Under the pieces are notes generated by a model. The model was not told where the DNA came from, searched no databases, and was given only the letters and a program-made list of their open reading frames with translations. Source: Paenibacillus sp. L3-i20 (lineage in GTDB: Bacteria > Bacillota > Bacilli > Paenibacillales > Paenibacillaceae). From it: DNA of 64,000 bases. Both the position numbers and the translations under genes were made by a program. How positions within the stretch are numbered: position 1 is the first letter of the stretch; every line of letters starts with the position of its first letter. The DNA lies in contig NZ_BQME02000001.1 in assembly GCF_022180385.2 (NCBI RefSeq), positions 434,001-498,000 on the forward strand, given 5' to 3'. Below are positions 718 through 27,589 of this stretch, in pieces.

Positions 718-2655
718 TTACATCAACTTCCTCCGCATATGCGTTAAATAACGCCAGCGTATTAGCAAGAAGTATATGATTTGCATCGCTAGAAACGAAA
801 CGTAGATGAGTAGTGCATCCTCGAGCATCGGCATTTGCACAAGGTTCCCCATGTTCATAAAGGCTATTGCACTATGAAGCATTCCTACAGAAAAGGGTAG
901 GAAAAACATAAGTATTAGCTGTCTAGTTACTAGTTTACTTAGTTCCTTACCGCTTAGTCCTATCTTGCCGATCATTTCATATTGTTTCTCATCTCGATCC
1001 AAATCAGCATACAATCGGAAATATATAAAGCTTGCAGCAAAGGTAAAGAACACTACAGCTACTAGAACGCTAATAATTAACAAGATACCGTTTAGCTGCT
1101 TACTGTCATACCAGTCGAGTACTAATGCGGACAATGCAAGAGACTTTATGACCCCGTCTGCGGATGAATCCTTTATTGTCGTTTCTTTGAGATCTTCTTC
1201 AATCGATAATTGAAGTTCCCTCGCGACTTGAATTGTATCTTCCCATTGCGGCATTACATAATAAGTTGTAGATTCTAATGCATCGTACTTAGATATGTGG
1301 TCATACATTTCATCTGACACAATAATCGTGTCATAGGGACTAGGGATGACCATATCCTCCATTCTTTCCTCTAGCTTCAAATCCGATGTACGTTCTCCTC
1401 CTGACGCACGTACCGCAGCAGCATAATTTTCATCGATCATACCACCTCTTGCAATCGTGCCGGATGAGACAAGCATTCCATCAGAATGTAACGTTTTGGG
1501 CTCATAGCCGAGCATCTCTATTAGAGCATTAAACTCCATTAGCTTCATAACCGGGTATGTTGCTGCATATTTCGTTTGTACGGAAACTTTTTTAAATGTA
1601 TACCCTTCATCAGATAATGCCCCGTCTATCCTGCTAAGATGCTCCCCTTTCCACTCACTGTCTTCTTTAGACTTGTAAATAAACGCATACGGATTATCTC
1701 GTTCCGTCCGATCAGGATCACCAATGACCAGACAGACGCCAACTCCGGAGAATGCTACTGCCATAACCGTTGCCACCATAAAAAACATAATCGCATTATC
1801 CTTCATCCGATAAGCGAGATCGGTGAACGTAAGCAGGTTGATTTTGCGAAAAAATAACTCTTCACGACGCTTAAGTCCACGAATAACATATACGCTTAGT
1901 TGTGTGAACAAAAAATAAGTGCCTACTATTACACAACCAACCGCAAGCGAAATTAGCCACATGTAAAATGCTGAATTGTTAACAAAATGGAACACCATGC
2001 CATAACCCGCACCTATCAATACGACAGAGATCAGACTTAATAGTAGGGATGCCTTTGGTTCAGGGCGCGGCTTCTCATCAGACTTAATTAGATCCAGCAC
2101 CTCATTATGTCTGCCAATTCTTGTCGTGAGCAGTGAGATTACAAGGAATAATAGAGCGAATGCTCCCGCAGTCATCCAGACTGCTTGGATAGGAATGTAG
2201 AAATTCAATCCTTTCTCTAACATTAATAAGCGAGCACTAATAAGCAACATGAGCTTCGTACAAAGTAAACCTACACTAATCCCAAATAGAATGGCCCCTG
2301 ATCCAATAATCATATTTTCGATAAATGTAAGCTTCTTTCGTTGTTTCTCCGACATCCCGAGAATCATCAGTATGCCAAATTCTTTCTTTCGCACCTTAAG
2401 AAATGCGCTAGTTGAATATAGTAAAAATAAAAATGAAAAGATGAAAATTAAATAGATGGATACTCGAAGTCCCATCGTTCCGAGATAGGAAGCTACTCCG
2501 CTGCTCGATGCCAGTTGACCTTGAAGGTCGGGATGGAAAAGCAGAACGGCATAGATGAAAAACACCATTACAGCAAAGGCACTGCTCAAAAAATGTGCCG
2601 CATACGTTCGTTTCTTACGAATGACATTTCTAAACGCGAACTGTCGGAAATTCAT
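718..2655 (-). CDS. Bce-type ABC transporter permease (BceB/FtsX family)
   Basis: This is about 645 residues starting MNFRQFAFRNVIRKKRTYAA, the usual opening of BceB-type permeases. A longer in-frame reading would add 48 residues overlapping the ATPase gene; the ATG at 2653-2655 was preferred because GGAGGTCAGGAGA lies immediately upstream. It has an N-terminal membrane segment, a block of helices, a large extracytoplasmic domain (roughly residues 330-530) and a C-terminal FtsX-like helix group. In BceAB modules this subunit senses cell-wall-active peptide antibiotics (bacitracin-like) and signals to the BceS kinase. The start overlaps the ATPase 3' end by 26 bases, which suggests translational coupling. 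The peptide substrate cannot be told from sequence. Confidence 0.88.
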   Translation of the reverse strand: MNFRQFAFRNVIRKKRTYAAHFLSSAFAVMVFFIYAVLLFHPDLQGQLASSSGVASYLGTMGLRVSIYLIFIFSFLFLLYSTSAFLKVRKKEFGILMILGMSEKQRKKLTFIENMIIGSGAILFGISVGLLCTKLMLLISARLLMLEKGLNFYIPIQAVWMTAGAFALLFLVISLLTTRIGRHNEVLDLIKSDEKPRPEPKASLLLSLISVVLIGAGYGMVFHFVNNSAFYMWLISLAVGCVIVGTYFLFTQLSVYVIRGLKRREELFFRKINLLTFTDLAYRMKDNAIMFFMVATVMAVAFSGVGVCLVIGDPDRTERDNPYAFIYKSKEDSEWKGEHLSRIDGALSDEGYTFKKVSVQTKYAATYPVMKLMEFNALIEMLGYEPKTLHSDGMLVSSGTIARGGMIDENYAAAVRASGGERTSDLKLEERMEDMVIPSPYDTIIVSDEMYDHISKYDALESTTYYVMPQWEDTIQVARELQLSIEEDLKETTIKDSSADGVIKSLALSALVLDWYDSKQLNGILLIISVLVAVVFFTFAASFIYFRLYADLDRDEKQYEMIGKIGLSGKELSKLVTRQLILMFFLPFSVGMLHSAIAFMNMGNLVQMPMLEDALLIYVSFLAMQIIYFLLIRWRYLTHMRRKLM

Positions 2656-3400
2656 TCTCCTGACCTCCCAATAAAGAAAGCACATTGATGATTTTCTGAT
2701 AGAAGGCGCTGCGATTATCTCCGCAATGAACTTCGGTATAATATTGACCATCCTTAATGAATACGACCCGATCACAGTAACTTGCGGCCATTGCGTCATG
2801 TGTAACGAGCATCATTGTTGCTCCCTCTTCTTTATTGAGCTTGCACATCAACTCCATCACATCACGTGCTGATTTGGAATCCAAATTGCCAGTCGGCTCA
2901 TCAGCAAGGAGCAACTGAGGGCGATGGATGAGCGCTCTTGCAATAGCCGTCCGCTGCGCTTGACCTCCCGAAATCTCATACGTTCGCTTGTCCATAATGT
3001 GAGAAATACCTAATTTATTTGCGATAGCTTCTGCCATCTGCTTCATTTCATTGACACTTACCCCCTCCAGAGTCAAAGGAAGCACAATATTTTCGTTTAC
3101 TGTCATCGTATCGAGCAAGTTAAAGGACTGGAACACAAATCCAAGCTCACGTCTGCGAAAGTGTGCCAGCTTCTCCTGAGAAAGGTCATATGGATTATTT
3201 CCATTGATTCGAACATCACCAGATGTAGGACGATCAATTGTGGAGACAACATTAAGCAGCGTCGTTTTGCCGCTCCCAGACGGCCCCATAATACCAACGA
3301 ATTCCCCCTTCTCAATCGTCAGGTCAAAGTTACTTAACGCTTTATAAGACACTTTTCCAGGGTAAATTTTGTTTAGATTGCGTACTTGGAGCAAATCCAT
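2630..3400 (-). CDS. Bce-type ABC transporter ATPase (BceA-like)
   Basis: This is about 256 residues. Walker A is GPSGSGKTT, the signature is ISGGQAQRTAIARAL and Walker B is LLLADEPTGNLD, with a following H-loop VTHD. It is the cytoplasmic ATPase of the LolD/MacB/BceA class that powers the adjacent FtsX-like permease, giving resistance to antimicrobial peptides. The ATG at 3398-3400 is preferred over a GTG nine bases upstream because AAGGAG lies 10 bases before it. A terminator separates it from the kinase gene, so it should have its own promoter in 3401-3511, as in BceR-controlled transporters. I could not pick that promoter out confidently. Confidence 0.9.
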   Translation of the reverse strand: MDLLQVRNLNKIYPGKVSYKALSNFDLTIEKGEFVGIMGPSGSGKTTLLNVVSTIDRPTSGDVRINGNNPYDLSQEKLAHFRRRELGFVFQSFNLLDTMTVNENIVLPLTLEGVSVNEMKQMAEAIANKLGISHIMDKRTYEISGGQAQRTAIARALIHRPQLLLADEPTGNLDSKSARDVMELMCKLNKEEGATMMLVTHDAMAASYCDRVVFIKDGQYYTEVHCGDNRSAFYQKIINVLSLLGGQENEFPTVRV

Positions 3401-3511
3401 TCTCCGCACTCTCCTTATCTGTTTCTGTGATAGCTCCAGTGTAGACGATAACTGCCTCCTTTTCGACGAACAGTACCTTCATCTACCTTACAATATTGAA
3501 AGGTAGCATAA

Positions 3512-3545
3512 AAAAGCGATTAGATCTCAATGATCTCTCGCTTTT
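3512..3545 (-). terminator. Terminator after the BceS-like kinase gene
   Basis: On the minus strand a stem AAAAGCGA / TCGCTTTT with an inner AGATC / GATCT pairing is followed by a T-run. It overlaps the kinase stop codon. It divides the RR-kinase transcript from the ATPase-permease transcript. Confidence 0.75.
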
Positions 3546-4531
3546 CCTACTGCTGCATATGGGAAAATAAGACGTATAATCGTACCTTCTCCAACCTTAG
3601 ATTCAGCTTCAATTTTTTGATTCATTTTGTCCATAACCGTCTTAGCCATATATAATCCCATACCTGACGATTCTTTAAATCGCCTGCCATTCTCGCCTGT
3701 AAAGAAGGGTTGAAATATCCGTTTCATATCAAAAGCTGGGATGCCTACTCCCTTATCTCGAACTTCCAAAATAACACCACGTTCATCGTGATAGGCTGCA
3801 ATCGTAATGATACTTTCAGTCCCAGCGGCAAATTTAACTGCATTCGAGATAATCTGGATCAATATAAATCGAAGCCACTTGTGATCGGTTTCTACCACTA
3901 AATCTTCTTCTATTTCAATGCGAGGATACACATAGTTTCGTATAAACAATCTTTTATTTTCTAAAATAACCTCATTAGCAAGATGGCGTAATATAACCTT
4001 ATCTACACCAAAATCCACTTCGAACGTTTCAAGCCGCGCCATATAAAGAATCATTTCTAATCCTTTGCGAAGCCGCTCCGTCTCCTCCAGCATACTTTCA
4101 TTGCGTGGTCCATCATCATCTTGCAGCATAAGTTCCAGAACAGACAATGGCGTCTTCATCTGATGTACCCATTGATTCATAAATGTAATATGGTTCTGCC
4201 AACTACGCTCACCGTTCACCAATTCATTTTCATAATGACGATACTGCGAATTTAGCAGCTCGTTCACCGATGCTGGAAGTGGGGCATGTCCTTCAAGCTG
4301 ATAAGATTCCTCAATCTTAAACGTCTTCCTTGATAATAGCTCATAGAGCTTCCGATGACTCATATATCGATAGATGAGATATACGGCAAAGAGGCATATC
4401 CCTAACAAAATCGCATACGCAGCAACTGTCCAACTACGATAGCCATCTAGGTAGAATACTAGAGTAACGATACCTAATTGCACAAACATAAAAAGAGTGA
4501 GAGGGACATGTTCGCGGAAAAATAGTCTCAT
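3527..4531 (-). CDS. Intramembrane-sensing histidine kinase (BceS-like)
   Basis: This is 334 residues with two closely spaced N-terminal membrane helices (about 9-29 and 34-55) and almost no extracytoplasmic loop, the hallmark of intramembrane-sensing kinases. The dimerisation/phosphoacceptor box is HQMKTPLSVLELML, followed by an N-box near QIISNAVKFA and G-boxes DKGVGIP and SSGMGLYMAK. It should phosphorylate the response regulator encoded upstream. Its ATG overlaps the regulator stop by four bases. In this family the kinase has no input of its own and takes its signal from the BceAB-type transporter encoded downstream. Confidence 0.9.
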   Translation of the reverse strand: MRLFFREHVPLTLFMFVQLGIVTLVFYLDGYRSWTVAAYAILLGICLFAVYLIYRYMSHRKLYELLSRKTFKIEESYQLEGHAPLPASVNELLNSQYRHYENELVNGERSWQNHITFMNQWVHQMKTPLSVLELMLQDDDGPRNESMLEETERLRKGLEMILYMARLETFEVDFGVDKVILRHLANEVILENKRLFIRNYVYPRIEIEEDLVVETDHKWLRFILIQIISNAVKFAAGTESIITIAAYHDERGVILEVRDKGVGIPAFDMKRIFQPFFTGENGRRFKESSGMGLYMAKTVMDKMNQKIEAESKVGEGTIIRLIFPYAAVGKARDH

Positions 4532-19652: not shown

Positions 19653-19964
19653 CTAAAGCAATTTTTCATAATCGCGTTTACTATAAATAATGCGTCGAAT
19701 TTCTACAATATTGTCCAAGACAACATAGAAGATAAGGTAACTCTCAACGAGAAGAATTCGATACTCGTCCTTAAGCTTACCCGTACTTCTATAAAGACGT
19801 CCTGAGTAAGGGAAACTTTCTAGTCTAGATATAGTCTCTTCAAATTTTTCTACTAGATGAATTGCGGCTTCTGGTGCGAAAAGTTGTTCGCTAATGTAAT
19901 TGATAATATTTAATAAGTCCGATTGTGCCAACGCGAGATAGCGTAAAGTATACTTACTTTCCAT
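19653..19964 (-). CDS. RelE/ParE-family toxin
   Basis: This is 103 residues of RelE/ParE fold: N-terminal YTLRYLALAQSDLLNIINYISE, the middle FPYSGRLYR, and the core strands EYRILLVESYLIFYVV and VEIRRIIYSKRDYEKLL. A well-spaced AAAGGGG precedes the ATG. The gene begins 13 bases after the HsdM/HsdS-like fusion gene and should be expressed with it. The likely cognate antitoxin is the Phd/YefM protein 2 kb upstream at 21963-22241. ParE members poison gyrase and RelE members cleave ribosome-bound mRNA; sequence alone does not decide, though the length and the N-terminal pattern favour ParE. Confidence 0.85.
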   Translation of the reverse strand: MESKYTLRYLALAQSDLLNIINYISEQLFAPEAAIHLVEKFEETISRLESFPYSGRLYRSTGKLKDEYRILLVESYLIFYVVLDNIVEIRRIIYSKRDYEKLL

Positions 19965-19977
19965 TAAAGCGACCCCT

Positions 19978-21843
19978 TTATAGTTTGTTTTTAATCATCA
20001 TTCTTTCAAGCAATATTCTTTTTTGCATTACATACTTTTCTTCCGTTTCCTTTATTATTTCTTCGTATTCTTGTTTACTCTTCTTTAACTGTTCTCCTAC
20101 TTCATTCATAAATTCCATCGTAAATAATGGGATTTCAAGTTGCATCAGTTTGGATGGGTTAATTAATTTTATGGTTGTTCCCGTTTGAATACCATCAATC
20201 ATCCTACGACCCGTATCACTCTGTAAAAATTCATACAGAACATAAGCGTCGTATCGTTTAGGGTTTACTCGAATTATGGATAAGTTGCCACTAATAAACG
20301 ACTCATTAAATGGTTTTTCAACTATTGCGAACTTGATTACTGAACCTTTGGAAGTGATGAGTATATCCAACGGCTGGATTGCAAACTTCACAAGCCAGTC
20401 TTGCTTTTTATAAGTAATTTTCGACTCTTCGTCATAAGAAATTCTCCCACTCTCGATATCCTTAATATTTAGAAAATAATGAGTTGCAGCCTCCTTGAGT
20501 TCTTCATATTCTTCTTTCGATAATTGAACACCGCGCCTAATCTCAGCAATTTCGCCAAGCTTAACTGTATGCTGAAATGAATTTTTCAAAATATCAAATT
20601 CTAAATATTCTTTTGGATTGAGGCTATAGTTATAGGATTTAATTTTTTCTACATCAATCAGCCTGCAAAATCTTTCCTCTTCATTTCCCTCCCAATAAGA
20701 TGCAACAATCTTTAAGAGACCCTCTTCAGTAATCGCATGTTGATACCTATTTATTTTGCAAGAATATTTACTGGCATCAATAAACAATATTTTGCCACAT
20801 CTTTCTCTCGGTTTCCTTTTATTGAAAACGATCAGCTCCGTACTGATATTAGTTTGGGAATAGAGGTTCTCTGGCATGGTGATGATTGCTTCAATTAAAT
20901 CCTTGTCTATGATTGATTTTCTTATATGAACTTCAGTACTTCTTACCAATGTCCCCTTGGTACCGACTACAATAGCTTTACCGTTTTCATTCAAATGGTA
21001 TAAAACATTCTGATAAAATGCCCAATCCGCGGACGATTTCGGTGGTATGCCAAACTCGAATCTAGGATCGTTCCATGCATTTTCTTGATTCCAGGTTGCG
21101 TTAAAAGGTGCATCCGAAAAAATGAAATCAAAAGTTTGACGCGTGCTCCCACTGCTTACATGATCTAAGACATTCTTATTAACAATATTAAAGTTAGGGA
21201 TACTTTTTACAAACATTAATAGTTTGGAAATTAAATATGCCGAAACATTCATCTCTTCCCCGTAGTAGTAGGTGAGGTTTTCTTTTCCCGATACATTCAA
21301 ACGGTGAACCATCTCAAGATAAACACTCGAAATCCCCGAACAGTAATCGGCAATAAACTGAATATGTTCAAGGCGAACTAGATTAAGCGCCAGATTAGTA
21401 ATCGCTTCCGGAGTTCCGACGTACCCTTTACCACTAACAAACTTGGAGGCCAGTAAGTTAATAAGTTGAACAATTTCATTCAGATTTACAAATTGATAAT
21501 GGTTCAAGTTCTTAATTAAAATTTCCAATGCTCGATTCGTAGAATCGTTAGAAAAGTGAAGGAATGAATCCACAAGGCCTGTGAAAATACCCTTAAGCTT
21601 TTTATCGCTATACTCCAGTTGTTTCATTCTGGCATATAACCATTCTACAATTGGATTATCTTGAAAATCCCGATCCCATTGAACTTTCTTCTCGTTGCTT
21701 TGTTCAATTTCATTTAAATAATAGATAGAAGCAATGACTATAAAAATGCGAATAGATTGTTCAGTTGTGTATATTCTCCTTAGCTCATCAAGAGAGTTTC
21801 CTATCAATCTATTCAGTTCGGCACTCCTGTCGATATTACTCAT
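19978..21843 (-). CDS. Fused HsdM-like methylase and HsdS-like specificity domain with altered catalytic motifs
   Basis: This is 621 residues. Residues about 1-140 are helical. Residues 140-430 align by eye with type I N6-adenine methylases: TPEAI near 144, then WAFYQNVLYHLNENGKAIVV and MPENLYSQTNISTELIVFNK. Motif I, normally DPxCGSGG, reads ADYCSGISS (166-173), losing the second glycine. Motif IV, normally NPPF, reads DAPF (244-247). Residues 437-600 are one target-recognition domain (KLGEIAEIRRGVQLSKEEY, LDILITSKGS, IPLFTMEFMNEV) with a coiled-coil end. There is no HsdR gene nearby. The gene sits between antitoxin and toxin and has its own promoter. It may be a DNA-binding pseudo-methylase, or still active. 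Confidence 0.8.
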   Translation of the reverse strand: MSNIDRSAELNRLIGNSLDELRRIYTTEQSIRIFIVIASIYYLNEIEQSNEKKVQWDRDFQDNPIVEWLYARMKQLEYSDKKLKGIFTGLVDSFLHFSNDSTNRALEILIKNLNHYQFVNLNEIVQLINLLASKFVSGKGYVGTPEAITNLALNLVRLEHIQFIADYCSGISSVYLEMVHRLNVSGKENLTYYYGEEMNVSAYLISKLLMFVKSIPNFNIVNKNVLDHVSSGSTRQTFDFIFSDAPFNATWNQENAWNDPRFEFGIPPKSSADWAFYQNVLYHLNENGKAIVVGTKGTLVRSTEVHIRKSIIDKDLIEAIITMPENLYSQTNISTELIVFNKRKPRERCGKILFIDASKYSCKINRYQHAITEEGLLKIVASYWEGNEEERFCRLIDVEKIKSYNYSLNPKEYLEFDILKNSFQHTVKLGEIAEIRRGVQLSKEEYEELKEAATHYFLNIKDIESGRISYDEESKITYKKQDWLVKFAIQPLDILITSKGSVIKFAIVEKPFNESFISGNLSIIRVNPKRYDAYVLYEFLQSDTGRRMIDGIQTGTTIKLINPSKLMQLEIPLFTMEFMNEVGEQLKKSKQEYEEIIKETEEKYVMQKRILLERMMIKNKL

Positions 21844-21858
21844 CCTGTATCTCCTTTT

Positions 21859-21941
21859 TAGGTATTAATATACCTATTAAATTCTCTCAAAAAAATATGT
21901 ATGTCCATACCTAATATATCGTGCGAATAAATAACTGTCAA
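21859..21941 (-). promoter_or_regulatory. Consensus promoter followed by two related inverted repeats
   Basis: On the minus strand -35 TTGACA (21936-21941), a 17-base spacer and -10 TATATT (21913-21918) form a near-perfect sigma-A promoter. Just downstream are TATGTATG-TC-CATACCTA (21896-21913) and TAGGTAT-TAAT-ATACCTA (21859-21876), both 18 bases and both containing the half-site ATACCTA. They cover the start of the transcript, a typical place for tight repression. The second lies just before the ribosome binding site of the methylase-like gene. Confidence 0.75.
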
Positions 21942-21948
21942 GAAAAGC

Positions 21949-21973
21949 AAAAAAACCGGAGGTTACCCCCGGT
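21949..21973 (-). terminator. Terminator overlapping the antitoxin stop codon
   Basis: On the minus strand ACCGGGGGT / ACCTCCGGT forms a stem followed by seven T. It overlaps the antitoxin TAA, so the antitoxin transcript should mostly end before the methylase-toxin promoter. Confidence 0.7.
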
Positions 21974-22241
21974 CACCATTACGAATGTTCTGTTTTATTT
22001 TATCAAACACTTCGGAGTGAGTATAACGGACATCTGAGTTATTAGCTTCGAGTTCAGCTTCTTTCAGTTTTGCAAAAATCTCATTGTCGTACTGCATATT
22101 CTCATACTGCTCGATGCTCATGACCACCATATCGCCATGTCCATTTTTTGTAAGAAATACCGGTTCTCGACTTTCGTGAACAATCTTTGATATTTCCGAA
22201 AAATTATTCCGCAGATCGGATACAGGTCTAATTTGAGGCAA
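21963..22241 (-). CDS. Phd/YefM-family antitoxin
   Basis: This is 92 residues with a TTG start after AAAGGAGAG. The N-terminal DNA-binding fold is typical: MPQIRPVSDLRNNFSEISKI, then EPVFLTKNGHGDMVVMSIEQYENM. The C-terminal half (residues 55-92) is charged and helical, as expected for the toxin-binding tail. The gene has its own promoter with a palindrome over the -10 and spacer (22265-22293), consistent with autoregulation. Its toxin partner is most likely the RelE/ParE protein at 19653-19964, on the far side of the methylase-like gene. Confidence 0.88.
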   Translation of the reverse strand: MPQIRPVSDLRNNFSEISKIVHESREPVFLTKNGHGDMVVMSIEQYENMQYDNEIFAKLKEAELEANNSDVRYTHSEVFDKIKQNIRNGDRG

Positions 22242-22264
22242 AGCGTCCCTCTCCTTTCTACATT

Positions 22265-22293
22265 ATTTTATCATGATTATGATAACCAATCAA
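22265..22293 (-). promoter_or_regulatory. Antitoxin promoter with palindromic operator
   Basis: On the minus strand -35 TTGATT (22288-22293), a 17-base spacer and -10 TAAAAT (22265-22270) precede the antitoxin gene. The perfect inverted repeat TTATCAT-GATT-ATGATAA (22268-22285) overlaps the -10 and fills the spacer. This is a typical position for a Phd/YefM repressor site. Confidence 0.65.
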
Positions 22294-22624: not shown

Positions 22625-25600
22625 TTATGATTGCAACTGCATTAAAATCTGTGGATCTTTAATTTTCTTATCCTCAGCCAACATTACGATCTTCGACAAA
22701 ATTTCTGCTGTCTTTGGATCTTCATCAATAAAGGGCAAGAATATGCGGCCTCTATGCTGTGAATGTACAGGAATGATATACATAGCGCCTGTAGCCTGCT
22801 TGTAAACCATACCGCTGCCCAAATGTACGCCATATTCACCAAGAGAGCCTTCAATTCGAGCATAATTACCATCTAAACGAACATTATTAATCTTCATTAG
22901 TCGAAGCGACTCTTGAACAATTACTCTACGCATCTCAATCGTTGTTAAGCTAGCTTCTGGATCGACGCCGCCAATATGAGCGATACTTACGACTAGATCG
23001 ATATCCCGCATTACTTCTGAGAATAAAATAGGAGGAACTTTATCCAAGGTGACACTCTTATACGTATTCCGATCTAAGAACTGGACGGTTTCCAGTGTAG
23101 GGGCTTCAACCTCCGAAGGTGAAAACCAATCCGCCATTGCATAAAGATTCGCTATCAAATTTTCAGCATAATATACCTTCTGCAATCCCTCTTCGTAACT
23201 AACTGTCCACTGCCTGCCTTTAAGCAAGGAGACCGTTTTTCTTGGCTGTACTTGGTGCCCGGCATATCTGCGAGAAACTGTACCTTGAGCCTGTTCATCT
23301 GCATTTGGAACATACAACTCACGGAACACTTGCTTAAATGGTTGACGAAGCTCGCGATCAAACAAGTCCTTCTGATACTGACTCCATTGCCCGCTCTCGT
23401 ACAAATGAAGAGGGTGAGCAATATAGAGTACATCTGATTCCCCAACAAGCATCAACTTACCGGCTGGATCGACAAGCCCTCCTGCAATTGCATCGAAGTA
23501 TCCCAAACTCTCTCCAGACTTAAACACTAACGTCCGTAATAGAGGAGTGATTACTGGATTACCTGATAACCCCTTCAACTCCTGGAAAGTGAATGTATTA
23601 ACTGATTCCATTGAGCGTTCTAGCTCTTTGCGGGCTCTCCGATACTGATCGGTCAGTTCCGACTTCATTTCTTTCAATGTAGCAATATACTCATCTTTTT
23701 TATACTTAGCCGGGATGGCTTTCAGCTCTTTCCCTTTTCGGGTGATGCCAATCTCAGATTGTCCCTCTTCATCAATAAGGAGTTGGACTGTCGTCTCTTC
23801 ATCTAGGTTATAAGGCTGGAAATAAGATTGCATATCGTCCAGCTTTCGTGCTTCCATATCCCACATCAACCGAATGACATCTCCGTACCCAGCATTTCTC
23901 GCTAGGTTGCCAAGTGCAATTTGCGAAGTCAAGCTTTCACTTGCCCGACGCTGAGCGCCAAACTTTTTGCTTTGCGCCAAGAAGCGCTGAATAAATTCAT
24001 AACGTTCTCGAATATCTTGCTCTCGATTGTCAGCCAGCGGAATAAGGCTATAGCCCAGCAAGTGGTCCTTATTCCGTTTCTCTTCTACTGACTTCTGCAT
24101 ATCTATGATCTCTAACTTACCCAATGTCGCATCTGCAAAAAGTTGTGATCTTCGGTGATTAGCTCCAGCCGAAATATACTTAGCACAATCGTACAATAAA
24201 TCGAATCGCTTCTCTCCGAGTGTATCGTATGCCTCTTTAAACCACCTTATATCAAAGGCGCCGTCATTAAACTCTTGTGCTGAAATTGGTGAATAATGCG
24301 CCACAATCGTTTCTTTCTCGGCAGAGAAGCTTTCATTAATATGCGCATGGAAGTACCAAGCGCTACTACGCAGCCCATCCCAATTCAAATAATTGGCTAC
24401 AATATCCAACCATTGAGGAGCATACATGGCTGCTTCTAGCAATCTTTTTTCTGTAATATCAAGACCTTCTAACATTTGTTTCAATAAAGTATCATCTTCA
24501 CCTTTACGCGGGTAACTGGCCTTAAGCAGATGACAAAGGGATTCTTTCTTCGTAATGCTATCCCCGTATCCATAGATATAGCCGCGAATGAAGGTTTCCT
24601 GCTGCAACCCGGATAAGATATGAATGAAATGCTCCATGCCCTCGATCCGCTCCAGCCCCATGGCGAGAGGTGTTACTTCAGTAGCTAGATCACCACGACC
24701 AAGCTCCACCTCCAAAATCCGTTCTACGGCTGTCTGGCGAATCGTAAGCAACATCGGCTTATCGTCTATCCAATCATATTGTTTAGATGTTATATTGCGT
24801 ATATGATTGCGACCGTTTTGACTGCCGACTATTTCCCGATATACTTCCCCTGCACCGATCATTCCCGCTTCGACAGCACGTAAATAATCGTTAAGGTTAA
24901 GATTCGAATCACCTTTCTTATTCGGGTTCATGCGATTAAAAGTATAAAAAGTATGGAACATTCGTTTAAAGCTGTTGTCATCATATATTCGACTACGGGC
25001 CATTGAAATCCATGGTTCCGCTAAGAGTTTCAATATTCCCCACTCTTTGGCTACTTTCTCTATTGGCATAGCTTGGATGACTGCATTCAAGGCATTTATC
25101 GTTAAATCAAAAGTTTCGCTCTTGTCACTATCTATGAAGTAAGCATAAAGCAGATTAGTGATTTGCCTATTATACTTAAATCCAGTGAGCGCATCTTTAA
25201 TCTCTTGAATTTGGGCAACAGGATATACCTGCTCCGCAAATTCCTTACGTGAACCTTCTAGCAGCGCATGCTTCTCAAGCTCAGCGTAGTCCAACTCATC
25301 AATGAAATACCGATAATAGCGTTGCAACGTCTGGTCAAGCGGCTCTATTTTCGAATAAAAATAGATCTGTAGTAACTGGGATGCTCCCAAATCACTGCGC
25401 TCTAAATAATCTTTCCAAACGTCGTGCAGCGGATATTTCGGAAGCACAGCAGCATCTTCCTCGTCCTCATGTAATGGGCGAAGCTGTCTTAATTCTGTAC
25501 CTAGCAGCAGCGTTTCCTTGTAACCGGAATAATACTCTACCTCATACTCATAATCACGATGTTTATGAATTTCTTGCTCCAGCCCAGAGAGAAAACGAAT

Positions 25601-27589
25601 CACATCTTCCGTTGACAACTGGAAAACATTGTTCCACTCGAACTCCCTTATTACCGGAGTTTCTGTAAGCCAAGGCTCGATAGCATTGGGATCGAATAGA
25701 CCAAAGCCATTCGCTGCTGTATATTCACTTTTTTTATTGAGCCTGCCTATCAACTGCTGCTCCTTAAGTGTGGGACTATCAATTAATTTAGGTAGCGAGC
25801 TCACTGCTTCGTATTGCTCCGCACGTTCATTATCCTCAAAAATCTCAACAATCGTCTCCAATGCCGCCAATCTCTGCAATTCACTTTTTCCTTGCAATAA
25901 CCTAGTCAACGAGACTTTCATGTTATCCTTTGGTTGTTTCAACAGCAGTTCTATAGCACTTTGGCGTAAGGAACCTGTCTTTAGCTTCAATAAACCTTCC
26001 ACCAGCATCAACTCTTCGTCCGATAACGTCAGTTTTTTCGCCTTATTGATTGCATGATCACGGTTAGTCATACTCTTATCTGATAGAGAAGCAAATATGA
26101 ATTCACGCTGAATGGAATTATCCATATCCTTCATGAAATAAGAAAGCAACTCTCCACGCGTATCCGCACTTAATCGATCCTTCAGAGCAATAATTTCGGC
26201 GATCCACTCACTATCCATGTCATAGGCGATAAGGTATAACATTTTGCGAATAGGGAGGTCTGGCGTGTAATGAATATGTGCAAAATCCAACACTTTGGAA
26301 GTGGAAGCTATCTCTTTTTGAGTTCCACCAAGGAACATCGCCTTAAGCTGTTCAAACTCACATCGACGTTCTTCCTTATTTTCTAGAAGAGGGATACGTT
26401 CAAATGTAATACTTGGCTCGTCGTCATCTTCTCTTTTCCATACACGGCTGTAATCATAACAATAGTTGGACAAGATCCAATATTGTAATTCTGAGTCCGC
26501 AGTATCTAAGTATTGTCGTGCAATGCTATACCGAACATCGTCATTTTTACTATTAACGAGTACATACTGCGCAATGATCTTTTGGTATAGCTCTCCGTGC
26601 TCCATCAAATACTGGATTTTACTAATTAAGTTACGTTCTTCGAAAACTGCTGTAGCCCATAAGCTTAAATAGACATGATTTGCATTTTTGCTAGACAACC
26701 AAGACTCACGAACGGATTCATCATTCAGAGATTGATAGGCTCCTTCGATAAGTTGCCCGACTACGCGCTGATTTGTTGCTTCCAGTCCCATACCTGTCCA
26801 TACGCCAAGCGCTCTCACGACAGAACTATAGCGAATAAATCCGTTATCAACGATAACCTTCAGCATGTACAGGTTCGCTTTCAACGTCCCCTCGTCCATT
26901 CGTTCCACAATGGATTGTCGAAGTCCTTCTTGTAATCGTGATGCAGTCAATAGCTCGCCCATCATAACGTACAATTCCTCATTATGACTCATAAATATCC
27001 CTTTGATCATTTCATGAGTAAGCAATGCCGTTTGGTTGTCTCCATATACAATTTCCTTAAGTGCTGCAAGTACTTCTGTATGGTTACGATCTATCTCATA
27101 AGCAATAACATCACTGATCGAATGTGCCAATTCATAATCCTGTCTCAACGGATAATTGGGTAACGTCAAATAATCGATAATATTAAATTCATAACAATCC
27201 ATAGTGATGAGCGAACTCATCTTGTTAACCACTTGACCAACATGGGCACTCTTTTCCGTTGTACGGAATGGTCTGCGTGCATAGCCCGTATTATAGGGGT
27301 ATTCAGTTGCATGAGCAGCAATATACGCCAACACTTCTCCCGTGTGCTCATTCGTAAGCTGCTTCACAACTTTCACCAGCGGCTCGAATAATTGATCGTT
27401 ATTGCCCGCGGCAAGTGAATGTAATATCTCTTCACATTTCAAAAAAGTAGAATTCCCCTCATTCACACGTACCATTCGACCTAACTCTACTACTAATTTC
27501 GCTAATGAAGAAAGATGAGGGTCTACCCTCTCAGCTCGCTCTTGTAGTGATGCAAAATAACGCTTCTGTTGTCCCTGCTTTTCCATCAT
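22625..27589 (-). CDS. DUF4132-type giant protein (1654 aa)
   Basis: This is 1654 residues. Residues 1-650 are helical repeats (HEAT-like). The middle carries an acidic helical region (LERSDLGASQLLQIYFYSK and following). The last 280 residues form the conserved C-terminal block seen in DUF4132/MolR-like proteins: VSRRYAGHQVQPRKT, VSIAHIGGVDPEAS, and IFLPFIDEDPKTAEILSKIV ending KIKDPQIL. There is no signal peptide or membrane helix. In other bacteria such proteins occur beside MoxR-type ATPases, SWIM-domain and VWA proteins; none is here. The gene follows the 139-aa gene upstream by 13 bases, so the two are an operon. The biochemical function is unknown. Confidence 0.82.
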   Translation of the reverse strand: MMEKQGQQKRYFASLQERAERVDPHLSSLAKLVVELGRMVRVNEGNSTFLKCEEILHSLAAGNNDQLFEPLVKVVKQLTNEHTGEVLAYIAAHATEYPYNTGYARRPFRTTEKSAHVGQVVNKMSSLITMDCYEFNIIDYLTLPNYPLRQDYELAHSISDVIAYEIDRNHTEVLAALKEIVYGDNQTALLTHEMIKGIFMSHNEELYVMMGELLTASRLQEGLRQSIVERMDEGTLKANLYMLKVIVDNGFIRYSSVVRALGVWTGMGLEATNQRVVGQLIEGAYQSLNDESVRESWLSSKNANHVYLSLWATAVFEERNLISKIQYLMEHGELYQKIIAQYVLVNSKNDDVRYSIARQYLDTADSELQYWILSNYCYDYSRVWKREDDDEPSITFERIPLLENKEERRCEFEQLKAMFLGGTQKEIASTSKVLDFAHIHYTPDLPIRKMLYLIAYDMDSEWIAEIIALKDRLSADTRGELLSYFMKDMDNSIQREFIFASLSDKSMTNRDHAINKAKKLTLSDEELMLVEGLLKLKTGSLRQSAIELLLKQPKDNMKVSLTRLLQGKSELQRLAALETIVEIFEDNERAEQYEAVSSLPKLIDSPTLKEQQLIGRLNKKSEYTAANGFGLFDPNAIEPWLTETPVIREFEWNNVFQLSTEDVIRFLSGLEQEIHKHRDYEYEVEYYSGYKETLLLGTELRQLRPLHEDEEDAAVLPKYPLHDVWKDYLERSDLGASQLLQIYFYSKIEPLDQTLQRYYRYFIDELDYAELEKHALLEGSRKEFAEQVYPVAQIQEIKDALTGFKYNRQITNLLYAYFIDSDKSETFDLTINALNAVIQAMPIEKVAKEWGILKLLAEPWISMARSRIYDDNSFKRMFHTFYTFNRMNPNKKGDSNLNLNDYLRAVEAGMIGAGEVYREIVGSQNGRNHIRNITSKQYDWIDDKPMLLTIRQTAVERILEVELGRGDLATEVTPLAMGLERIEGMEHFIHILSGLQQETFIRGYIYGYGDSITKKESLCHLLKASYPRKGEDDTLLKQMLEGLDITEKRLLEAAMYAPQWLDIVANYLNWDGLRSSAWYFHAHINESFSAEKETIVAHYSPISAQEFNDGAFDIRWFKEAYDTLGEKRFDLLYDCAKYISAGANHRRSQLFADATLGKLEIIDMQKSVEEKRNKDHLLGYSLIPLADNREQDIRERYEFIQRFLAQSKKFGAQRRASESLTSQIALGNLARNAGYGDVIRLMWDMEARKLDDMQSYFQPYNLDEETTVQLLIDEEGQSEIGITRKGKELKAIPAKYKKDEYIATLKEMKSELTDQYRRARKELERSMESVNTFTFQELKGLSGNPVITPLLRTLVFKSGESLGYFDAIAGGLVDPAGKLMLVGESDVLYIAHPLHLYESGQWSQYQKDLFDRELRQPFKQVFRELYVPNADEQAQGTVSRRYAGHQVQPRKTVSLLKGRQWTVSYEEGLQKVYYAENLIANLYAMADWFSPSEVEAPTLETVQFLDRNTYKSVTLDKVPPILFSEVMRDIDLVVSIAHIGGVDPEASLTTIEMRRVIVQESLRLMKINNVRLDGNYARIEGSLGEYGVHLGSGMVYKQATGAMYIIPVHSQHRGRIFLPFIDEDPKTAEILSKIVMLAEDKKIKDPQILMQLQS

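Follow-up and report, generated by a model that had tools for sequence, protein, structure and literature searches.

A Phd-ParE toxin-antitoxin pair parted by a Type I-like methylase-specificity fusion gene, a candidate repressor of itself and of the toxin

How is a toxin gene kept in check when another gene parts it from that of its antitoxin? The question is raised by a locus of Paenibacillus sp. L3-i20 within a stretch of 64,000 nucleotides (contig NZ_BQME02000001.1, positions 434,001 to 498,000 of the forward strand; hereafter the window), in which a Phd/YefM-family antitoxin gene (phd), a gene for a protein joining the methylase (M) and specificity (S) parts of Type I restriction-modification (R-M) enzymes in one chain (the M~S fusion) and a ParE-family toxin gene (parE) follow one another in this order, all on the minus strand (table 1). 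The three genes had been recognized in an initial annotation made from the letters alone, and their assignment was confirmed by matches to PF02604 for the antitoxin, PF02384 and PF01420 for the fusion and PF05016 for the toxin. The antitoxin and toxin matches, both above the cut-off, place the pair among the Phd/ParE type II families, ParE being a better name for the toxin than RelE because the score with TIGR02385, the RelE/StbE model (27.6 bits), falls under the cut-off of 27.9. The one-operon adjacency of type II systems is missing, phd and parE being parted by the fusion gene and by a terminator-like hairpin, with 119 bp between phd and the fusion gene.

The answer favoured here, and considered fairly probable on comparison of the locus with its relatives, is that a catalytically dead Type I-like M~S protein represses its own gene together with that of the toxin, which would have left the operon of its antitoxin, phd being expressed separately. 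The three genes travel together, and phd on the one side and fusion-parE on the other have separate promoter-like regions, each with its own type of palindrome.

Recurrence of the triplet and its two palindrome types

Loci encoding a fusion protein at least 67% identical to that of the window were gathered, and eight distinct loci were left once L089, L043 and L038 had been dropped as duplicates of L017, L019 and L018, respectively: the window, L028, L029, L017 (Cohnella phaseoli), L019 (Paenibacillus thalictri), L044, L088 and L018 (P. sinensis). The syntenic triplets that the initial annotation had proposed to look for were indeed found, the order phd, fusion, parE on one strand being conserved in all seven distinct loci with both sides readable; the eighth, L018, contains the fusion gene and parE on a contig whose start falls on a hairpin-like sequence, at the expected end of phd. 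The module is rare (with a threshold of E <=1e-150, matches came from six of 394 genomes in the family, counting that of this strain). All matches were less than 60% identical both in a scan for close relatives on plasmids and phages (3057 plasmid and 37 phage records) and with P0015 as the query (1969 plasmid records), and a second and a third scan of viral contigs revealed no further full-length relative, the third giving eight partial-match loci at 24-29%.

Separate promoters had been claimed for phd, along with a terminator, and for the fusion and toxin genes, and promoter-like sites, to be read as consensus matches rather than mapped transcripts, were found in both places (TTGATT-17-TAAAAT before phd, which is followed by the hairpin; TTGACA-17-TATATT before the fusion gene), as was the 13-bp gap between fusion and toxin genes. 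The latter site was the top scorer among 22 promoter-like sites in a 3-kb stretch (shuffles average 11.9). No known RNA element was detected at the gathering threshold between 19000 and 23000.

The palindrome before phd, TTATCAT-N4-ATGATAA, is expected by chance 0.04 times in the window, and four of 100 shuffles had one. Its TATCAT-N4-ATGATA core lies 5' of phd in 7/7 triplets and, in exact form, in three of the 16 loci without an intact fusion gene (L065, L066 and L068; not exact in the other 13). Since it stands before phd both in triplets and in loci without an intact fusion, this palindrome follows Phd. The fusion-toxin promoter instead carries a pair of palindromes, O1 and O2, of the AGGTAT-N4-ATACCT kind; allowing one mismatch at most, two matches were found in the window (mean expected, 0.18; no shuffle out of 100 with two). 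Similar pairs, with conserved arms and a variable centre, are present in 8/8 loci. O1 lies within about three bases after the -10 element and has the exact GTAT-N4-ATAC core in six of the eight; O2, placed just before the ribosome-binding site, reads GGTAT-N4-ATACCT in every one, again with a variable centre. The O1-O2 spacing is 37 bp in six loci and 35 bp in L017 and L019. A seven-T run (gene strand) between O2 and O1 (21876-21896) is also invariant in the eight loci and may perhaps be related to DNA bending.

The GTAT-N4-ATAC core, as defined on the triplets, was then sought in the 200 bp preceding fusion genes outside triplets. It was found before all three of the most similar stand-alone fusions with upstream DNA, namely L059 (44% identity), L021 (39%) and L030 (33%), with four core sites against 0.02 expected and none in 300 shuffles; L046, near-identical to L045, and L060 (38%; no upstream DNA) were left out of this upstream search. 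No relatives of Phd or ParE were detected by tblastn (E <=0.1) near L021, whose contig is only 3.4 kb long, or near L030, L059 and L060. The regions upstream of 16 canonical hsdM genes, four of which lie directly behind a fusion gene, contained no GTAT-N4-ATAC, no GTA-N6-TAC and one GTA-N7-TAC. Because the fusion gene is the factor shared by the core-bearing loci, autorecognition by the fusion protein is the simplest reading, and the site it reads would most plausibly be its own promoter.

Phd-family antitoxins are DNA-binding autorepressors, so that both the phd promoter and that of fusion-parE might be repressed by Phd, alone or with ParE, in what would be an ordinary autoregulated toxin-antitoxin locus with the fusion gene as a passenger; both palindromes do have a 4-bp centre flanked by AT. 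This explanation is nevertheless judged unlikely: the palindromes differ in sequence, the ATGATA type recurs before phd genes that lack a fusion, the GTAT-N4-ATAC core recurs before three fusion genes with no Phd relative nearby, and the fusion gene is under selection. A second alternative places the control at the protein level, with the fusion holding ParE as a latency partner, as EcoprrI does with PrrC, an earlier case of a toxin kept in check by a Type I complex (PMC3874165). The fusion gene and parE are 11-22 bp apart in the eight distinct loci, and are thus probably co-translated, as would suit such a partnership; by itself, however, it leaves unexplained both the paired palindromes at conserved spacing and their recurrence before fusions without parE, and it is regarded as very unlikely as a replacement for control at the promoter.

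Several observations weigh against autorepression by the fusion. O1 is degenerate in two of the eight loci (L017 and L019). The GTAT-N4-ATAC core is absent from all 17 more distant fusion relatives, ten of which also lack GTA-N7-TAC. The identity grouping was set after the result was known, and L032, at 32% identity against 33% for L030, lacks the core. Furthermore, the core is not a rare sequence (129 places in the own genome against 90 for the control; about 0.005 per 200 bp), and the fusion may also neutralize ParE at the protein level. The looser pattern GTA-N7-TAC occurred ten times in seven of the 17 distant relatives (0.67 expected; 0/300 shuffles), a result to be taken as exploratory because four cores and ten spacings were tried.

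As to sites elsewhere in the genome, GGTAT-N4-ATACC is found at ten places, against five for the reversed control pattern, and the full AGGTAT-N4-ATACCT at two of these ten: the locus's own O2 and a position inside a gene with PriA domains. A regulon outside the locus was considered and rejected, with context examined for these two of the ten places.

A specificity domain joined to a degenerate methylase

In the fusion protein, residues 127-415 correspond to the N6_Mtase domain (PF02384, E 7.9e-59) and residues 426-573 to Methylase_S (PF01420, E 1.2e-05), the latter in one stretch. Sequences were aligned for 61 of 120 listed relatives (290 found) together with five reference proteins, and motifs were counted in the query and its 45 best matches (n=46). 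The catalytic motif of the enzyme class is NPP(Y/F/W) (PMC3874165). This motif IV is intact in none of the 46 sequences, the query reading DAPF: none of the 46 retains the first Pro, only 13 retain the aromatic residue, and 45 begin with Asp. In motif I, 44/46 retain the first Gly, and the second Gly is changed to Ser in 43. Among the next 16 matches, P0046, P0047 and P0061 keep DPPF or DPPY. The degenerate catalytic motif speaks against a working methylase, and the fusion is probably dead as such.

An active solo methylase, whose methylation of GGTA-N6-TACC would act on the promoter or on phage DNA and whose loss the toxin would punish, could be reconciled with the N6_Mtase fold, the Asp at the first position of motif IV and the retained first Gly of motif I. 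The loss of the first Pro throughout, the scarcity of the aromatic residue, the change of the second Gly of motif I to Ser and the lack of both HsdR and a second N6_Mtase gene in the genome make it quite improbable. For HsdR, no match to PF04313 (HSDR_N) was obtained at E <=0.001 in the own genome, which is 97.7% complete, whereas nine of 14 control genomes have one, so that the absence of a restriction subunit claimed at the outset extends to the genome level; with the same threshold and completeness, the fusion itself is the only N6_Mtase match. On account of these two absences, the idea of a relic of a degraded Type I system was likewise set aside. With no HsdR, no intact motif IV and one stretch of target recognition domain (TRD) rather than two, the locus departs from a Type I R-M system. 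It also departs from MADS, the methylation-associated defence system, as only partial mad2 and mad5 matches were obtained (MAD5 model, 62.1 bits against a cut-off of 400), and a PADLOC scan of phd, ParE and the SF0329 neighbour gave no mad match for any of them.

The part of the protein expected to read DNA has been preserved best: among 24 sequences mean pairwise identity is 65% in the TRD, 56% in the methylase domain, 41% at the C-terminus and 31% at the N-terminus, and the position of the TRD as the most conserved region fits a fixed DNA target. According to PMC3874165, Type I S subunits reduced to one TRD act as homodimers on interrupted palindromes (e.g. TCA N8 TGA), and enzymes with a single TRD, called 'Type 1 1/2', also occur in nature. 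The GGTA-N6-TACC sequence shares this form. Two PDB structures, 8vsq and 8vsr ('Esub1'), show sequence similarity to the fusion's TRD (E about 1e-7); no paper on them was found in the literature searched.

On these grounds the mechanism may be pictured as follows. The fusion protein would dimerize, its two identical recognition domains reading the half-sites of O1 and O2 with the GGTA-N6-TACC geometry, and it would repress its own promoter and hence parE, while Phd would regulate itself and neutralize the ParE that leaks through. Were the fusion lost, titrated or inactivated, toxin transcription would proceed with no corresponding burst of antitoxin, and growth would cease. Candidate inactivators would be antirestriction DNA mimics, incoming DNA that carries the sites and a phage-borne homologue. 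The initial annotation had the fusion watch a DNA site, for example a phage- or methylation-dependent one, and gate the toxin: the gating through a DNA site is what the comparison suggests, whereas a dependence on phage or on methylation would go beyond it, and the degenerate motif argues against a working methylase.

Table 1. Genes and proposed sites of the module in the window.
Feature	Position	Strand	Basis and remarks
ParE-family toxin gene	19653-19964	-	103 aa; PF05016, E 3.6e-13; 13 bp after fusion gene
M~S fusion gene	19978-21843	-	621 aa; N6_Mtase and one Methylase_S domain
Codons of degenerate catalytic motif IV (DAPF for NPPF)	21103-21114	-	alignment; coordinates computed from residue numbers
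Palindrome O2, AGGTAT-N4-ATACCT, proposed operator of fusion protein	21860-21875	-	just before ribosome-binding site
Palindrome O1, proposed operator of fusion protein	21897-21912	-	directly after -10
Promoter-like site of fusion-parE, TTGACA-17-TATATT	21913-21941	-	11/12 consensus matches; aligned across eight loci
Terminator-like hairpin after phd	21954-21974	-	
Phd/YefM-family antitoxin gene	21963-22241	-	92 aa, TTG start; PF02604, E 1.7e-15; start aligned with relatives
Promoter-like site of phd, TTGATT-17-TAAAAT	22265-22293	-	consensus scan, 9/12 matches
Palindrome TTATCAT-N4-ATGATAA, proposed Phd operator	22268-22285	-	one match in window

Origin of the parted pair and selection on its genes

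The search with the toxin gave matches in 19 of 148 relatives at E <=1e-10, the own genome included; L069, a fragment without a Phd neighbour, and L074, L082 and L084, which have an internal stop codon, were left out of the list. In the 16 non-triplet loci examined, phd and parE overlap in 14, are 3 bp apart in one and are separated by a 228-bp gap in L065, the overlaps being possibly overstated because gene starts in the pair loci were taken as the first start codon. Given that 14 of the 15 ordinary pairs overlap and the remaining one is 3 bp apart, the fusion would have split a pair. The 228-bp gap of L065 (genome G163) contains, at the expected place and in the expected orientation, a 19-codon stretch matching residues 554-572 of the L017 fusion with 63% identity (E about 7.5e-05, small search). 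The triplets and L065 are set apart from the pairs in both trees (support 0.974 for ParE and 0.877 for Phd). We infer that the fusion entered an ordinary phd-parE pair once and was later lost in L065. In G163 (L065/L090), both the fusion and the O1-O2 region appear to have gone, leaving Phd and ParE in place.

The values of dN/dS (nonsynonymous over synonymous substitutions) determined against the window are 0.10-0.23 for the fusion, 0.10-0.20 for ParE and 0.08-0.15 for Phd, ratios that are rough because dS is 0.85-2.0 except against L028; at the level of such comparisons, all three genes are under purifying selection. The fusion as a recent chance insertion, one of the outcomes that would have spoken against the original proposal, is ruled out by the order in 7/7 readable loci and by its dN/dS, and the remnant in L065 agrees with this. 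Neither was any locus found in which a toxin or antitoxin of the triplet type is paired with other partners; the one genome that has both without the fusion is that with the remnant.

The flanks of the module differ among the triplets. Upstream in the window is a DUF5724/DUF4132 gene; in L017, L029 and L044 the neighbour carries tRNA_U5-meth_tr and TRAM domains, and in L028 it is a 1426-aa frame with no Pfam match. Such variety would suit a module that is solely a selfish stability element, with a fusion that has no role in toxin control, an explanation that leaves the operators at conserved spacing and the selection on the fusion unaccounted for; as stability and repression can coexist, stability as the sole function is considered highly improbable. 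The upstream gene that adjoins the module in the window (22625-27589) encodes a 1654-aa protein with DUF5724, DUF4132 and DUF7737 domains, and L088 is flanked (1776-4202) by a gene with TOTE conflict-system primase and helicase domains, possibly a defence neighbour.

Known systems, the wider family and what autorepression would mean

The initial annotation knew of no described system with this gene order, and no description of the order or of an M~S repressor was found in the literature searched, with subscription papers mostly outside it. The module is rated here as a variant of the three-component toxin-antitoxin kind, and its type of regulator looks new. Several likenesses can be drawn. In PaaR-PaaA-ParE and omega-epsilon-zeta, as presumably in the module, an antitoxin and a ParE-type toxin are accompanied by a gene for a repressor of their own, but theirs is a ribbon-helix-helix protein encoded first in one operon with antitoxin and toxin (PMC3874152), whereas here the order is phd, fusion, parE, the promoter-like sites are separate and the presumed repressor is the M~S fusion. 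Like M.AhdI and the EcoDXXI deletion mutants, which represent the Type 1 1/2 and single-TRD Type I methylases (PMC3874165), the fusion has one TRD per unit, and it would also share with them an interrupted palindrome as its site, as judged from the conserved palindromes; it differs from them in having M and S in one chain, a degenerate motif IV and no restriction gene in the genome.

The Type I island with DarTG2 of enteropathogenic E. coli, controlled by RptR, also combines Type I R-M-like and toxin-antitoxin genes, in a locus under a repressor. RptR is a small protein apart from the complete R-M operon that it represses (PMC12255303), while here the R-M-like protein itself would repress. In EcoprrI-PrrC a toxin is also genetically tied to Type I-like proteins (PMC3874165, PMC12707154), but PrrC lies inside a complete hsd operon and is held at the protein level; in the present module hsdR is missing and the lock would act at the promoter. 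Finally, Ecl18kI, SsoII and EcoRII provide examples of a methylase that represses the promoter of its own system (PMC12707154). They are Type II enzymes with a repressor domain, in contrast with a specificity domain that would read the operator and a partner that is a toxin.

Relatives of the fusion occur in two further settings. L059, on a viral contig, lies beside a CI-like helix-turn-helix (HTH) gene and before DUF2800 and single-strand-binding genes. The homologues L059 (4680-6533) and L060 (1-1812), both on viral contigs, and L021 (437-2248), on a short genome contig with the same HTH-type gene downstream as L059, are maybe phage regulators. Among the distant relatives, L031 and L034 precede hsdM-hsdS-hsdR as identified with Pfam, and annotation places L026 likewise, one small gene away; L034, L048 and L055 have two GTA-N7-TAC palindromes each, 89-97 bp apart, in their upstream regions. 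These distant M~S relatives (L026, L031, L034, L048 and L055) are possible autoregulators of R-M operons.

That the module senses phages is a guess suggested by the company the fusion family keeps. In a wider proposal, which is put forward tentatively and is itself rather doubtful, degenerate Type I M~S proteins would form an undescribed class of autorepressors that read a DNA site, acting in phage early regions, as the first gene of R-M operons and, in this locus, as a lock on a toxin; the repressor would then be a decoy that antirestriction proteins of phages, their DNA or a homologue they carry would disable, with the result that toxin is transcribed without extra antitoxin and the infection aborts.

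If autorepression by the fusion is true, an M~S protein without methylation would be a sequence-specific transcription factor whose operator can be read by comparison, and the way in which Type I specificity domains become regulators could be tested directly on the module. It would also hint at what solo genes annotated 'N-6 DNA methylase' do. For toxin-antitoxin systems it would represent a design in which transcription of the toxin is uncoupled from that of the antitoxin, and in which release of the toxin may be tied to interference with restriction-like proteins.

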